Shown here piece by piece: positions 34,769-41,272 of a DNA stretch of 42,400 bases. Numbering within the stretch: position 1 is the first letter of the stretch; every line of letters begins with the position of its first letter. A model generated the notes under the pieces. The model saw only the letters and a program-made list of their open reading frames with translations. It ran no database searches and was not told the origin of the DNA. The stretch lies in NCBI GenBank assembly GCA_947623925.1, contig CANQID010000009.1, forward strand, positions 1 through 42,400, given 5' to 3'. The stretch comes from an uncultured Bacilli bacterium. GTDB lineage: Bacteria > Bacillota_I > Bacilli_A > RF39 > UBA660. The position numbers were made by a program, and so were the translations under genes.

Positions 34769-36052
34769 GTGATAAAAAATAATGTTTTACCTGCAGATAC
34801 ATTTGTAGTTGTAAATAAAACCATTTTAACAGAACAAGATAGAAAAATTATTACAATGTTATATCAACCAATAATAGGTTCCATATCAACGAATTTATTT
34901 TTTACTTTTTGGTCTTATTTAGATAAATTAGAATTAATGTCAATAGAGGAAACTCATCATCAATTAATGACTAATATGAAAATGAATTTAGAAGATATAA
35001 TAGAAGCAAGAGAAAAACTAGAGGGAATAGGTCTTTTAAAGACATATGTAAAAAAAGGAAATATTAATAGTTATATATATTGTTTATATTCACCATTAAG
35101 TGCCTATGAATTTTTTAATAACCCAATACTTGATGTTACATTATTTGATAACATAGGAAAAGAACAATACGAAAAATTATTACAATATTTTAAATTACCT
35201 ACTTTTAAAATTGAAAATTATGATGACATAACATGTTCTTTTAGTGATGTTTTTAAGTCTAATAAAATATTATATAATGAACATGAAGATATAAAAAAAA
35301 TAAATAAAAATGGGATAAATATAAATGAGGATTTTGATTTGGGTTATGTTTTTGATATGATACCAGATGAAGTATTAAATAAAAGAAAAGTAACAAAAGA
35401 AATAAAAACAATTATAGAAAAACTTTCATTTATATATAATTTAAGTGAAGAAGATTTAATTGAAATATTATTTAATTCAATCGATGATGAACAACATATA
35501 ATTGATTTAGAAAAATTAAAATCAAATTGTAGAAAATATTACTCATTTGAAAATAAAGGTAAAGTTCCTTCAATAGTATATAATACACAACCAGAATATT
35601 TAAGGAAAGAAGTAACTGATTTATCAGATAAATCAAAAATGATACATAAATTTGAAACAACATCTCCATTTGAAATATTATATGAAAAAAATAATTATAC
35701 AAAGCCTTCAGTATCGGATTTAAAAACTTTAGAATATTTGTTGATTGATCAAAATTTAACACCCGGTGTTGTAAATGTGCTTATAGATTATGTTTTAAGA
35801 ATAAATGATAATAAATTTTCAAGAAATTTTGTTGAATCTATATCTAGTCAATGGGTTAGAAGCAAAATAAAAACAGTAGAAGAAGCTATGAAATTAGCTG
35901 AAAAAGAATATAAAGGTAAAAGAAATACTACAACTAAAACAATAAAAACTATAGAGAAAAAACCTTCTTGGTTTGGAAAAGATATTAAAGAAAATTTGGC
36001 AACTGAACAAGAGCAATTAGAATTTGAAAGAAAATTAAAAAATATGAAGTAG
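34769..36052 (+). CDS. dnaB: replication initiation protein DnaB (Gram-positive helicase-loading type)
   Basis: A 427-residue protein of the Bacillus DnaB/DnaD family, which loads the replicative helicase at the origin. N-terminal winged-helix region: PADTFVVVNKTILTEQDRKIITMLYQPIIG. The C-terminal DnaD-like module contains PFEILYEKNNYTKPSVSDLKTLEYLL and LTPGVVNVLIDYVLRINDNKF, then a helix with SQWVRSKIKTVEEAM. The start is GTG at 34769, after GGTGGTGAT, with an extended -10 (TGTTAAAAT at 34735-34743). Followed 8 bases later by dnaI, the usual partner order. Confidence 0.9.
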   Translation: MIKNNVLPADTFVVVNKTILTEQDRKIITMLYQPIIGSISTNLFFTFWSYLDKLELMSIEETHHQLMTNMKMNLEDIIEAREKLEGIGLLKTYVKKGNINSYIYCLYSPLSAYEFFNNPILDVTLFDNIGKEQYEKLLQYFKLPTFKIENYDDITCSFSDVFKSNKILYNEHEDIKKINKNGININEDFDLGYVFDMIPDEVLNKRKVTKEIKTIIEKLSFIYNLSEEDLIEILFNSIDDEQHIIDLEKLKSNCRKYYSFENKGKVPSIVYNTQPEYLRKEVTDLSDKSKMIHKFETTSPFEILYEKNNYTKPSVSDLKTLEYLLIDQNLTPGVVNVLIDYVLRINDNKFSRNFVESISSQWVRSKIKTVEEAMKLAEKEYKGKRNTTTKTIKTIEKKPSWFGKDIKENLATEQEQLEFERKLKNMK

Positions 36053-36060
36053 GTGATAAT

Positions 36061-36975
36061 GTGCTTGATGTTAAAGATGAAATTAAAGAAATGGGATTTG
36101 AATTAAAAAACAATTTGGAAAAAGAATATAATATTGCTTGTAAAGATGAAAAATTTACTAATTTAGTAAAAAAAATAAAGTTGGATAATAAAACTTTAAT
36201 GAAATATACATCTCAATTACAAGAGTGTAGTTTAAATTATGACATATGTATAAATTGTAAAAATATATTAGATTGTAAACAAAAAATAAAAGGATATTGT
36301 TATTTACCTAAAGTAGTTGATAAAAAAATTAATTTTAATTATCAACCATGTAAATACAAAAAGAAACTAGATGCATCAAAAAAACATCTAAAAAATACAT
36401 TTGTACTTGATGAACCAATAGAAATAAAACAAGCTGATATGGATAAAATATATATGAAAGATAAAGACAGATTTGAAGCAATAGAGGCGATACATAAATT
36501 TTTAGTTGAATATAGGAAAGATAAAAATCAAAAAGGATTATTTTTATATGGAAGTTTTGGCAGTGGTAAAACATATTTAGTTTCAGCCCTTTTTAATGAA
36601 CTTGCTAAAGAAAATGTAAAAAGTGCTGTTGTATTTTGGCCAGAATTTTTAAGAAATTTAAAAGCAAGCTTTTCAACAGATTATAATGAAAAATATGAAT
36701 ATATCAAAAAAGTACCCCTTCTTTTAATTGATGATATAGGTGCTGAAGTAACAACACAATGGGGAAGAGATGAAATATTATGCCCATTAATACAATATAG
36801 AATGCAAGAAAAGTTACCAACTTTTTTTACATCAAATTTAGATATGGAATCGTTAGAACAACATTTTTCTATAAGTAAAGATGGCGTCGAAGAAATAAAA
36901 GCAAAAAGAATAATTGAAAGAATAAAGCAATTAACAAATGAAATTCAAATTATAAGCAAAAATTTAAGAAATTAG
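36061..36975 (+). CDS. dnaI: primosomal protein DnaI (helicase loader ATPase)
   Basis: A 304-residue AAA+ ATPase that loads the replicative helicase. The N-terminal domain has a cysteine cluster (CSLNYDICINCKNILDC and later GYC/QPC) consistent with zinc binding. The ATPase core has Walker A GSFGSGKT near residue 163, Walker B LLLIDDIGAE and sensor 1 FFTSNLDME. The start is GTG at 36061, after AGGTGAT. Operon with dnaB and the RNB-like gene. Confidence 0.93.
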   Translation: MLDVKDEIKEMGFELKNNLEKEYNIACKDEKFTNLVKKIKLDNKTLMKYTSQLQECSLNYDICINCKNILDCKQKIKGYCYLPKVVDKKINFNYQPCKYKKKLDASKKHLKNTFVLDEPIEIKQADMDKIYMKDKDRFEAIEAIHKFLVEYRKDKNQKGLFLYGSFGSGKTYLVSALFNELAKENVKSAVVFWPEFLRNLKASFSTDYNEKYEYIKKVPLLLIDDIGAEVTTQWGRDEILCPLIQYRMQEKLPTFFTSNLDMESLEQHFSISKDGVEEIKAKRIIERIKQLTNEIQIISKNLRN

Positions 36976-36991: not shown

Positions 36992-38782
36992 ATGGAAAAC
37001 GAGAAAATTAATGAACATTTGAAAGAAGTAACAAACTTAATTTTTCAAAAAAAAGATAATTTTGATTGTGTTAAAGATGAATATATTTTAAGAAAAATGC
37101 AATATATTTTAAAAAATATTGATAATATTACAGAAGAAGAGAGATTGAGCATTATAAATAATATTTCAATTTTATTACATAGAATTGAAAGTATAACAGA
37201 AGATGATATTTTTTTAAAAGAACATAGTGAAAATTTAGAAATAATTAAAGAAACTTTAAACACTATTTTCAATCATATTTGTTCTAATTACGATAGGAAA
37301 GAATATGAAGTTAAAAGATTATTAGGAATAATTATTTTTGAGTATAAGGATTATAATTTAGTAAAATTAATATTAAATAATTTTACTGAATTCGAAACTG
37401 AAAAAGATATATTTTCAGTTGTAATAGATAATTATATAAATTCACTTGTTTATAATTTAAATGATGTTGTTTATTATGAGAAAATTATAAGATTATTTTA
37501 TGAGACAGATAACTGTAATATAAATAGTAAGAATAGAAAAATTCTTAGAGACAAAATTTCACAAGCAAGTATTATGATATCTTCAAATCCAAATTTGAAA
37601 ACTAAAGCAAAAAGAAGAATAATAGATGAAATTAACTCTTTTTTTAAAAAAGGAATAGATAGAAAAAATATAATTGATATTGAAAATATTAATTCTAGAT
37701 ATGACATTAGTGAAAAATTTCCATTTGATAATTCTGAAATAATAGATGAAATTAAGTTAAATGAATTAAATAGTAGTGGTGAGTATATTGATTTAACAAA
37801 TGAATATGTAGTTTCAATAGATTCAAATGGTACATATTGTTTTGATGATGCATTTTCTTTTAAAAAGGATTTAGATGGTAATTATGTATTAACTATTTTT
37901 ATAGCAGATGTTGGAAATGTAATTTCATTTAATTCAAAAATTGATTTAGAAGCTTATAAAAGAGGATTTTCAATTTATATCCCAAAAAGTTATATTCCGA
38001 TGCTTCCAGACAAATTATCAAATCATTATTTGTCATTAAATAGATTAGGTATAAAGAAAGTATTTGCTTATAGATTTGTTTTTACACCTTCTATGGAATT
38101 AAAAAATAACGATGTAGAAATATTTAAGGCATTAATAAGAGTGTCTAAAAACTATTCATATACAGAGGTAGATAAAATTATAAAAAATAATAAAAAGGAA
38201 TCTGATTTTTTTACTTCTGTACTTGAATTTAGTGAAAAATTAACTATTTCAAATAATTGTTTTGATGAAAATGATAATTTCTCAAAAAATGCTAATAAAA
38301 GTGCTTTTTCAAAAGTGGTTTCTAAATTTATGATTTTAACTAATTATTATACAGCTTTAAAATTTTATAAATTAGATTTACCATTTATATATTGTGTAAA
38401 TGATAATTTAGTAACTGAACAAATTTTAAATTGTAAAGATTTAGATATATTTCAAAATGAAAAAATGGAGGATATAATGAATTTGATAAATCAAAATTAT
38501 TTTAAATCCTCTTATTCAACTGTAAATAAAGGTCATTTGGGATTTGGATTGGATGCTTATTGTAATACAACGAATCCTATTAGAAATTATGCTTCTATAA
38601 CAACACAACGTTTAATAGAACAATTTTTAATAGAAAATAAAATAAATTATGATTCTATATATTTTTGGGAAGATTATTTACAAAATCTAGTAAAATACTT
38701 AAATCAAAGAAAAGAAATTAATGGTTATTATTGTAGTGAATATATAAAAAATCAATTTATGTATAGAAAAACTAAAAAATGA
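36992..38782 (+). CDS. divergent RNB-domain protein with altered active site
   Basis: A 596-residue protein. Residues 1-250 are helical and not recognised. Residues 265-560 match the RNB catalytic domain of RNase II/R: TIFIADVGNVI, LEAYKRGFSIYIPKSYIPMLPDKLSNHYLSLN, and later HLGFGLDAYCNTTNPIRNYASITTQRLIEQFL. RNase II uses four aspartates spaced like Asp201, 207, 209 and 210. Here the same spacing holds Asp277, Cys283, Asp285, Asp286, so one metal ligand is lost. The cold-shock and S1 RNA-binding domains are absent. Function unknown: perhaps a non-nucleolytic RNA binder or weak nuclease. It follows dnaI by 16 bases. Confidence 0.82.
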   Translation: MENEKINEHLKEVTNLIFQKKDNFDCVKDEYILRKMQYILKNIDNITEEERLSIINNISILLHRIESITEDDIFLKEHSENLEIIKETLNTIFNHICSNYDRKEYEVKRLLGIIIFEYKDYNLVKLILNNFTEFETEKDIFSVVIDNYINSLVYNLNDVVYYEKIIRLFYETDNCNINSKNRKILRDKISQASIMISSNPNLKTKAKRRIIDEINSFFKKGIDRKNIIDIENINSRYDISEKFPFDNSEIIDEIKLNELNSSGEYIDLTNEYVVSIDSNGTYCFDDAFSFKKDLDGNYVLTIFIADVGNVISFNSKIDLEAYKRGFSIYIPKSYIPMLPDKLSNHYLSLNRLGIKKVFAYRFVFTPSMELKNNDVEIFKALIRVSKNYSYTEVDKIIKNNKKESDFFTSVLEFSEKLTISNNCFDENDNFSKNANKSAFSKVVSKFMILTNYYTALKFYKLDLPFIYCVNDNLVTEQILNCKDLDIFQNEKMEDIMNLINQNYFKSSYSTVNKGHLGFGLDAYCNTTNPIRNYASITTQRLIEQFLIENKINYDSIYFWEDYLQNLVKYLNQRKEINGYYCSEYIKNQFMYRKTKK

Positions 38783-38824: not shown

Positions 38825-39020
38825 AATGTGGTGATTAGGATAATATTATTAAGTTAGTATTTTAAAGAGAGTTATTGTTTGGTGTGAAATAACAAATACA
38901 TTAATAATTACTACCTATGAACAGAGTTCGAAAGAAATCTCCGGTTAAAGCCGTTATAAAATTAAGTTAAAAAAAGGATGGTACCGTGCATATGCACTCC
39001 TTAAGTACTATCCTTTTTTT
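38825..39020 (+). promoter_or_regulatory. threonyl T-box leader
   Basis: A tRNA-sensing leader. Stem I spans about 38833-38918; TTAGG near 38836 can pair with CCTA at 38914-38917. The specifier codon is then best read as ACU (38910-38912), for threonine. The T-box sequence AAGGATGGTACCGTG (38974-38988) carries TGGT, able to pair with the ACCA end of tRNA-Thr. A terminator (38969-38983 with 39005-39020, T run) competes with the antiterminator. Uncharged tRNA-Thr should allow read-through into the dUTPase-like gene and thrS. Confidence 0.9.
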
Positions 39021-39033
39021 TGGAGGTTATTGT

Positions 39034-39513
39034 ATGAGAAAGTTTGAGAAAATAAGTTTTGAACAATTTAAAAAAGATGTTGCAGATGATAAAAAGTTAT
39101 ATGATTCTTTTAGTTTACCTAAAAGAAGTACTCGTTTTAGTGCTGGATATGATTTTTTCTCGCTATTTGATTTTACATTAAAACCAAATGAAATAATAAA
39201 AATACCGACCGGTGTTAAAATAAAAATGAATGATGATGAAATGCTTATGCTTGTAGTAAGAAGTAGTCAAGGATTTAAGTATAATGTAAGAATGTGTAAT
39301 CAAATAGGAATTTTCGAAAGTGATTACTATAATAATGAATCAAATGAGGGACATGCATGGCTTAAACTACAAAATCATGGAGATAAAGATTATATAGTTA
39401 AAAAAGGTGATGCAATATGTCAAGGTATATTTACTAAATTTTTAACAGTAGATGATGAGGAAGAAATATTAGATTATAGAAAGGGTGGAATAGGTTCCAC
39501 AGATAAAAGGTGA
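39034..39513 (+). CDS. dut: dUTPase-like nucleotidohydrolase
   Basis: A 159-residue protein with the trimeric dUTPase motifs: motif 1 AGYDFFSL, motif 2 VVRSSQGFK, motif 3 NQIGIFESDYYNNESNEGHAWLKLQN, motif 4 GDAICQGIF and motif 5 RKGGIGSTDK. It would hydrolyse dUTP to dUMP and pyrophosphate. The motif 3 variant with an inserted YNNESNEG loop is seen in a clostridial/phage-like branch. The start at 39034 follows GGAGG; the upstream in-frame ATG at 38986 lies inside the T-box terminator and is rejected. Being first behind a Thr T-box is unusual. Confidence 0.88.
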   Translation: MRKFEKISFEQFKKDVADDKKLYDSFSLPKRSTRFSAGYDFFSLFDFTLKPNEIIKIPTGVKIKMNDDEMLMLVVRSSQGFKYNVRMCNQIGIFESDYYNNESNEGHAWLKLQNHGDKDYIVKKGDAICQGIFTKFLTVDDEEEILDYRKGGIGSTDKR

Positions 39514-39517
39514 TAGT

Positions 39518-41272
39518 ATGATAAATATAAAAGAAGATGAAAGATTAAGTAAATTAAATCATAGTTGTGCACATTTGCTTGCGCAAGCAGTAAAACATAA
39601 ATATCCACATGCTAAATTTTGGGTAGGACCTGTAATTGAAGAGGGATTTTATTATGATATCGATTTAGGTGATGATGTAATAAAAGAAGAAGACTTAGAG
39701 ATGCTAGAAAAAGAAATGAAAAAAATTTCTAAAGATGGTAAAAGAATAGTTAGACATGAAATTAGTAAAAAAGAAGCATTAGAAATGTTTAAAGATGACC
39801 CATATAAATTAGATTTAATAGAAAGAATGGACGATAAAGAAACTATTATTTCTTGTTATACACAGGGAGATTTTACTGACCTTTGTCGTGGACCACATGT
39901 AGATACAGTAAAAGAATTAAAATATTTTAAGTTATTAAAAGTAAGCGGTGCTTATTGGAAAGGTGATTCAAATAATAAAGTACTTCAAAGAATATATGGT
40001 ATTTGTTTTGATACAGAACAAGATTTAGAAAATCATTTGAAATATTTAGAAGAAGTAAAAGAAAGAGACCATAGAAAACTTGGAAAAGATTTAGAAATAT
40101 TTATGATGTCTGATCTAGTTGGTAAAGGGCTTCCAATGTGGTTACCAAAAGGCGCTACTTTAAGAAGAACACTAGATAGATATATAACAGATAAAGAAAT
40201 AAGTTTAGGTTATAAACATGTATGTACTCCTTCAGTTGGTAGTGTTGATTTATATAAAACAAGCGGACACTGGGAACATTATAAAGATGATATGTTTCCA
40301 TCTATGAAATTAGATGATGAAGAATATGTTTTGCGTCCAATGAATTGTCCACACCACATGATGATGTTTAAAAATAGTTTACATTCTTATAGAGATTTGC
40401 CAATTAGAATTGCTGAAATTGCAAATGATTTTAGATTTGAAGCGAGTGGTGCAGTATGTGGTATAGAAAGAACTCGTGCATTTACTCAAAATGATTCACA
40501 CATATTTTGTAGACCAGACCAAATAAAAGAAGAATTTAAAAATGTAATAGACTTGATTTTAGATGTATACAAAGATTTTGGATTTGAAAATTATAGTTTT
40601 AGACTTTCTTTAAGAGATAAAAACAATACAGAAAAATATTTTGGAAATGATTTATTATGGGAAAAATCAGAAAATGAGTTAAGAGAAGTTTTAGATGAAG
40701 TAGGGGTAGATTACTATGAAGCAGAGGGTGAAGCAGCATTTTATGGACCTAAATTAGATGTTCAAGTAAAAAGTGCAATAGGTCATGATGTAACACTTTC
40801 AACTATACAACTTGATTATCAATTACCTGAAAGATTTGAACTTACTTATATTGATGAACATGGTGATAAGGTAAGACCTGTTGTTATTCATAGAGCAATA
40901 TTAGGTTCTCTTGATAGATTTACTGCATTTTTAATAGAAGAAACAAAGGGTGTATTTAAAACATGGCTTGCTCCTGTACAAATAAATATTATTCCTGTTA
41001 ATAATGAATATCATTTAAAATATTCTAAGGAACTTGAAAAATATTTAAGTTCATTTGGATTTAGGGTTGAGTTAGATTCAAGGGAAGAAAAACTTTCTTA
41101 TAGAATGAGAGAAAGTCAAACTAAAAAAATACCTTTTACATTAATAATAGGTGATAATGAAAGAGATAATGATACTATAAGTTATCGTAAATTTGGAAGT
41201 AGAGATACAACAACTGTTTCAAAGAAGGAATTTGTAGATATGATTAAAGATTTAATTGAGACAAAAAAATAA
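39518..41272 (+). CDS. thrS: threonyl-tRNA synthetase without TGS domain
   Basis: A 584-residue class II enzyme that charges tRNA-Thr. The editing domain starts near residue 15 (LNHSCAHLLAQAVKHKYP, and later CRGPHVD). The catalytic core has zinc-ligand blocks MNCPHHMM (near residue 274), then FRFEASGAVCGIERTRAFTQNDSHIF, and VIHRAILGSLDRF as motif 3. The anticodon-binding domain runs from about 480. The N-terminal TGS domain, about 60 residues in Escherichia coli, is absent. AAAGGTGATAGT sets the start. Controlled by the T-box leader together with the dUTPase gene. Confidence 0.95.
   Translation: MINIKEDERLSKLNHSCAHLLAQAVKHKYPHAKFWVGPVIEEGFYYDIDLGDDVIKEEDLEMLEKEMKKISKDGKRIVRHEISKKEALEMFKDDPYKLDLIERMDDKETIISCYTQGDFTDLCRGPHVDTVKELKYFKLLKVSGAYWKGDSNNKVLQRIYGICFDTEQDLENHLKYLEEVKERDHRKLGKDLEIFMMSDLVGKGLPMWLPKGATLRRTLDRYITDKEISLGYKHVCTPSVGSVDLYKTSGHWEHYKDDMFPSMKLDDEEYVLRPMNCPHHMMMFKNSLHSYRDLPIRIAEIANDFRFEASGAVCGIERTRAFTQNDSHIFCRPDQIKEEFKNVIDLILDVYKDFGFENYSFRLSLRDKNNTEKYFGNDLLWEKSENELREVLDEVGVDYYEAEGEAAFYGPKLDVQVKSAIGHDVTLSTIQLDYQLPERFELTYIDEHGDKVRPVVIHRAILGSLDRFTAFLIEETKGVFKTWLAPVQINIIPVNNEYHLKYSKELEKYLSSFGFRVELDSREEKLSYRMRESQTKKIPFTLIIGDNERDNDTISYRKFGSRDTTTVSKKEFVDMIKDLIETKK

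Follow-up and report, generated by a model that had tools for sequence, protein, structure and literature searches.

The window, the 42,400-nucleotide stretch of DNA analysed here, carries a row of genes on the forward strand, to which all coordinates below refer: dnaB (positions 34769-36052), dnaI (36061-36975), a gene for a divergent RNB-domain protein, here called RNB2 (36992-38782), and thrS (39518-41272). The dnaB product, a protein of helicase loading and DNA remodelling, was assigned by its DnaB_2 domain (Pfam PF07261, 45 bits) and scores 288 bits with the NCBIfam model NF052657, under the equivalog cut-off of that model. DnaI, the primosomal protein or helicase loader, passes the cut-off of its NCBIfam model (NF006505, 259.9 bits, cut-off 228), and the RNB2 gene starts 16 nt past its end, as an earlier note on this DNA, made from the sequence alone, had stated. 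The RNB2 open reading frame begins with ATG and encodes 596 residues without an internal stop. The next conserved gene is thrS, which stands directly after dnaI in several families of the class besides that of the window; ThrS has ~580-590 residues in the family of the window versus 634-660 in other families of the class, and may therefore lack an N-terminal domain, and the thrS tree conflicts with that of dnaI. A dUTPase-like reading frame at 38986-39513 is listed with a GTG start, and a 159-residue version in a sister genome suggests that the true start is 39034. A complete RNase R (706 residues), in which Pfam recognizes OB_RNB, CSD2 and S1 domains, is encoded on a separate contig of the same genome.

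The core of RNB2 is an RNB domain (residues 266-547, 37787-38632), which scores 165 bits with Pfam PF00773 (cut-off 29). An AlphaFold model, calculated from a 34-row alignment and with a mean pLDDT of 80, predicts twelve helices in residues 1-236 (helical to ~260), followed by the RNB fold and, at the C-terminus, a single long helix. By sequence and predicted fold alike, the closest solved structures are those of RNase R (PDB 8cdv, E 1.9e-22 for the model), RNase II and Dis3 proteins including Dis3L2; the fold matches in the PDB also include Ssd1, Dss1 and the Deinococcus radiodurans protein 2R7D. Profile search and model comparison thus agree with the earlier note on the RNase II/R core. The score of RNB2 with the NCBIfam RNase R model, 146 bits, is far under the cut-off of 598. 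Around the core, an all-helical N-terminal domain (residues 1-235, 36992-37696) replaces the HTH, CSD1 and CSD2 domains of RNase R, and the long C-terminal helix (residues 553-595, 38648-38776) lies at the place of its S1 domain; no S1 barrel follows the RNB domain in the model. Pfam finds no OB, CSD or S1 domain in RNB2, and the same scan recovers OB_RNB, CSD2 and S1 in the RNase R of this genome, which bears out the claim that the cold-shock and S1 domains are missing and that helical residues stand in their stead. For the N-terminal domain itself, the Pfam scan gave no match, and the fold search against the PDB gave none with E < 0.05, the best being helical-repeat proteins. YtxC (Pfam PF08812), encoded between dnaI and thrS in Bacillus, was considered as an identity for this domain and rejected, no match over the cut-off being obtained in RNB2 or in 98 relatives.

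The catalytic motif of RNB2, VSIDSNGTYCFDDAF (37820-37849), aligns with RNase R proteins as D277-x5-C283-x-D285-D286, the counterparts of D201, D207, D209 and D210 in RNase II. The spacing of the four aspartates is kept, and the set is incomplete: the second one is Cys283 (codon TGT, 37838-37840), in a column occupied by Asp (RNase II Asp207) in all 13 aligned RNase R proteins. The catalytic arginine is present as R531 (38582-38584), the equivalent of RNase II Arg500, within a PIRNYAS block that stands at the PIRRYPD of RNase R. The earlier note had read both the cysteine and this block in the same way. Y329 (37976-37978) falls in the column of a conserved RNase R tyrosine, which, judging by the motif, is presumably Tyr253 of RNase II.

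These positions were followed through an alignment of 56 divergent RNB proteins and the 13 RNase R proteins; in the former, 37 proteins, RNB2 of the window included, form a dnaI-linked set. All RNase R proteins read D-D-D-D-R at the four aspartates and the arginine. At the second aspartate the dnaI-linked proteins carry Glu (11), Val (6), Leu (5), Cys (4), Met and Ile (2 each), and Ser, Gln, Thr, Phe, Ala, Gly and Asp (1 each), so that Asp is missing in 36/37 and neither Asp nor Glu is found in 25/37; the aligned proteins are very divergent, and in those that diverge most the site may be called one residue off. The remaining positions are largely preserved: D201 in 37/37, D210 in 33/37, Arg500 in 36/37 and the tyrosine column of Y329 in 32/37, while the D209 position is Asp in 30 and Glu in 7. 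The second aspartate is among the least retained of the 72 columns invariant in RNase R, despite lying in the best-retained motif. Relatives without the dnaI link depart less from RNase R at this site (Asp 5, Glu 6 and Cys 4, n = 17). On a tree of the RNB domain, which is poorly resolved and has long branches, the site changed at least seven times between acidic and non-acidic residues. Since homologs carry Glu in 11 cases and Asp in one, cysteine is not the signature of the subfamily; what is conserved of the catalytic set described in the earlier note is the loss of the second aspartate, and Cys283 as a signature was discarded.

We consider it slightly more probable than its opposite that RNB2 is a lineage-specific RNase R paralogue now serving as an RNA-binding protein, either a pseudo-exonuclease or a crippled exonuclease. 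Its RNB fold, first, third and fourth aspartates, arginine and tyrosine clamp are kept and its second aspartate is replaced, as such a protein would have it; with one catalytic aspartate and the usual RNA-binding side domains lost, RNB2 probably binds RNA without normal cutting. In RNase II, all four aspartates and Arg500 matter, Asp209 being the most critical (PMC3293843), and fungal Ssd1-type proteins, in which the RNase II active site was lost repeatedly, act as RNA-binding proteins (PMC8097288, PMC8934651). RNB2 could operate in the following manner: RNA 3' ends would still enter the channel and be held there, as the conserved positions suggest. With metal binding at the altered site impaired, hydrolysis of the held RNA would be poor or absent. 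The helical N-terminal domain probably contacts a protein partner, with no fold match pointing to a specific one. RNB2 may thus act by binding, whether it traps 3' ends, serves as an RNA chaperone or belongs to a regulatory complex, and degradation would be left to RNase R. Against this reading stands the retention of three of the four aspartates, for which a pure scaffold would have no need.

The retained residues are also what speaks for a rather less probable account, in which RNB2 is an active, altered exoribonuclease that degrades RNA from 3' to 5' slowly or in a substrate-specific manner, its helical domain selecting substrates while bound to a partner. Three aspartates plus a glutamate, or an unusual metal site, would then suffice; D201, D209 (or Glu), D210, R500 and the tyrosine clamp are mostly conserved, and Glu is the commonest replacement of the second aspartate. 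Dss1, one of the PDB fold matches, has Glu at this very position, compatible with an active enzyme and taken as tolerated (PMC8097288), and by this analogy the Glu-type relatives of RNB2 may be active. However, a metal-binding carboxylate has no equivalent in Val, Leu, Cys, Ile, Met, Ala or Gly, and one genus has Val throughout; moreover, D209, which matters most in RNase II (PMC3293843), is replaced by Glu in 7/37, and D210 is lost in 4/37. The Cys, Val and Leu types are, to judge from these replacements, probably inactive or just weakly active.

Of 108 genomes sampled in the family to which the window belongs, 101 yielded a dnaI gene; 90 of these loci, with that of the window among them, were examined. 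At no fewer than 28 of them, RNB2 is the next gene after dnaI and has the same orientation; the true number may be higher, since some contigs break off shortly past dnaI. Of 20 further loci fetched by their RNB2 match, 13 also have RNB2 adjoining dnaI, and in all the same placement is seen at 14 loci beyond the 90. The gap between the two genes is -26 to +23 nt in most loci. The genomes of the relatives are mostly drafts in many contigs, and some gene ends or frameshifts may therefore be assembly errors. Elsewhere in the class, thrS frequently comes straight after dnaI, and a class-wide profile search returned from other families matches to the RNB part only (as in RNase R), none with the full N-terminal region; RNB2 therefore probably arose in, or was inserted into, the dnaI-thrS interval within the family of the window. 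With ~40 genomes from many genera sharing the helical N-terminus, the loss of the second aspartate and a place of its own after dnaI, the suggestion of an undescribed RNB subfamily is supported.

The neighbourhood is conserved in many genera, though some relatives sit elsewhere: three (L037, L147 and L154) lie between lepA-like and miaB-like reading frames, with miaA further upstream in L147, two (L148 and L151) adjoin a uvrA-like frame and others stand beside unrelated genes, all these names being taken from N-terminal motifs. Intact relatives are among those at other places, and the dnaI link is therefore preferred, not obligatory. Several loci of the family hold other long or additional genes. 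Directly after dnaI in L063, L078, L079 and L080 are reading frames of 771-858 residues (that of L080 cut by the contig end) without a confident Pfam match; they are mutually related, those of L079 and L080 to that of L063, and the RNB2 profile still matches weakly in L078 (E 2.7e-10) and L063 (E 4.6e-6), where Pfam RNB no longer does, and these two look like extreme RNB2 derivatives by sequence. Two successive RNB genes follow dnaI in L060 (4422-8240) and L108 (4410-7892), and the second one of L060 encodes a complete protein of the RNase R type in which the four aspartates are present. Additional RNase R-like genes, in tandem or fused, occur in L050 (G004:C36, 4609-8460), G003:C36, G030:C47 and L052 (G054:C12), one of them a 1283-residue reading frame with two RNB matches. 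RNB genes seem to multiply in this bacterial family.

The position after the helicase loader had led the earlier note to weigh a role tied to replication against a structural or RNA-binding one. RNB2 might work with DnaB and DnaI when replication is initiated or the helicase is loaded, and bind nucleic acid at R-loops or the fork; the trees of 23 loci having RNB2, dnaI and dnaB show that the three genes travel together: of 20 splits, RNB2 shares 9 with dnaI and 11 with dnaB, and dnaI and dnaB share 10, compared with 2 of 27 for dnaI and thrS. RNB2 is as faithful to the dnaB-dnaI row as dnaB itself. Together with the direct downstream, same-strand placement at so many loci, this is what favours a replication role. 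Neighbours are, however, often merely co-inherited, as illustrated by thrS, which follows dnaI in several families without a common function; at the majority of the family's examined loci no RNB2 is seen behind dnaI, and the link is further weakened by the intact relatives at other places. A part in replication is therefore unlikely, its tie consisting of position and co-inheritance, and the RNA-binding half of the proposal is judged the likelier one.

Being faithful to its row, RNB2 nevertheless changes fast. Over the 23 loci, mean distances are 3.45 for RNB2, 1.27 for dnaI and 1.24 for dnaB, and RNB2 distances are on average ~2.5-2.7 times those of dnaI; within genera, dN/dS is 0.20-0.79 for RNB2 versus 0.03-0.34 for dnaI, values which are rough because many dS are near saturation. 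Between the window (genome G000) and its sister G002, DNA identity in 200-bp bins is 92-96% over dnaB-dnaI, falls to 59-79% over RNB2 and returns to 93-100% beyond it, with edges at the ends of the RNB2 gene. The dS of RNB2 in this pair is 0.69, as opposed to 0.11-0.28 in the neighbour genes, which faster protein change alone does not explain; replacement by a divergent allele is therefore the simpler reading. The copy in G002 (L033, G002:C16, ~2350-2650) has a frameshift near the N-terminus, either real or an assembly error. The pair L185/L186 shows the opposite pattern (RNB2 dS 0.50, dnaI dS 0.92), which also fits allele exchange.

Such gene-sized divergence would be expected if RNB2 were driven by conflict, e.g. 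anti-phage or between strains, with alleles exchanged as whole genes. Replacement is, however, clear in one pair only, dN/dS stays below 1 (0.2-0.8), deep inheritance tracks dnaB-dnaI and PADLOC gave no defence match, so that we hold a conflict-driven gene to be just as doubtful as a replication factor. A defence-family identity was rejected on the PADLOC result. A phage origin was likewise dropped: the matches listed from phage records cover 54-60% of the query, from residue 191 or later (the RNB part), at 26-29% identity, and none of them covers 80% of RNB2. The joint proposal of an RNase-R-derived pseudonuclease family that traps RNA 3' ends, its whole-gene alleles exchanged and diversified under conflict, e.g. 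where phages interfere with helicase loading or with RNA, appears a shade more doubtful still.

Whether the altered site is maintained can be read from one genus, in which 17 genomes were searched and 14 gave an RNB2 match. RNB2 directly follows dnaI in 14/14, and in 14/14 the second-aspartate site is Val, within the frame TIDDxxxxVLDD (one member has TVDD); pairwise identity averages 45% for RNB2 versus 68% for dnaI, 68 of 588 columns are invariant, and the closest pair has a dN/dS of 0.20. Since Val is fixed at so low an identity, RNB2 is, on these sequences, a repurposed protein whose altered catalytic site is maintained and not decaying. A functionless, decaying RNase R duplicate, which highly divergent members and the frameshifted G002 copy might suggest, is highly improbable given that nearly all other RNB2 reading frames are long and intact (500-690 residues), that dN/dS is ~0.2 in close pairs, that the altered motif is fixed in this genus and that the position after dnaI is held over many genera. 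Likewise, RNB2 is not the lone degenerate copy beside a full RNase R that the earlier note had allowed for, because gene context and altered site are conserved; the full RNase R exists elsewhere.

Within the open-access literature searched, pseudonucleases of the RNase II family are described only from fungi, and no description of an RNB2-type protein was found, an absence which is not proof. A bacterial family that repeatedly and stably loses the same aspartate would show which aspartates are needed for binding and which for catalysis, in gut bacteria that form a large uncultured group with small genomes; the place after the helicase loader and the gene-sized divergence of alleles are good reasons to test its function. 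With RNase R and RNase II (VacB/RNB; PF00773, TIGR02063, TIGR00358), RNB2 shares the RNB fold, the first, third and fourth aspartates, the catalytic arginine, the tyrosine clamp and the GHxG and PIR motifs; it differs in the lost second aspartate, the missing OB_RNB, CSD2 and S1 domains and the helical N-terminus of ~235 residues. The Deinococcus radiodurans RNase II family protein (PDB 2R7D) is also an RNB protein with a non-standard N-terminal region; unlike RNB2, it keeps an S1 domain and the catalytic aspartate set. The yeast mitochondrial exoribonuclease Dss1 resembles the 11/37 relatives with Glu at the second position; Dss1 is active, whereas RNB2 of the window has Cys. The fungal pseudonucleases Ssd1 and Sts5, like RNB2, have the RNase II fold with one or more catalytic residues lost, and they have a nuclease-independent function such as the one proposed here. 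Ssd1 differs in that it keeps its cold-shock domains, carries channel-blocking inserts and arose in fungi independently of RNB2; the conservation of these cold-shock domains in fungi suggests that the non-nuclease role there resides in them, and their absence from RNB2 counts against the parallel.
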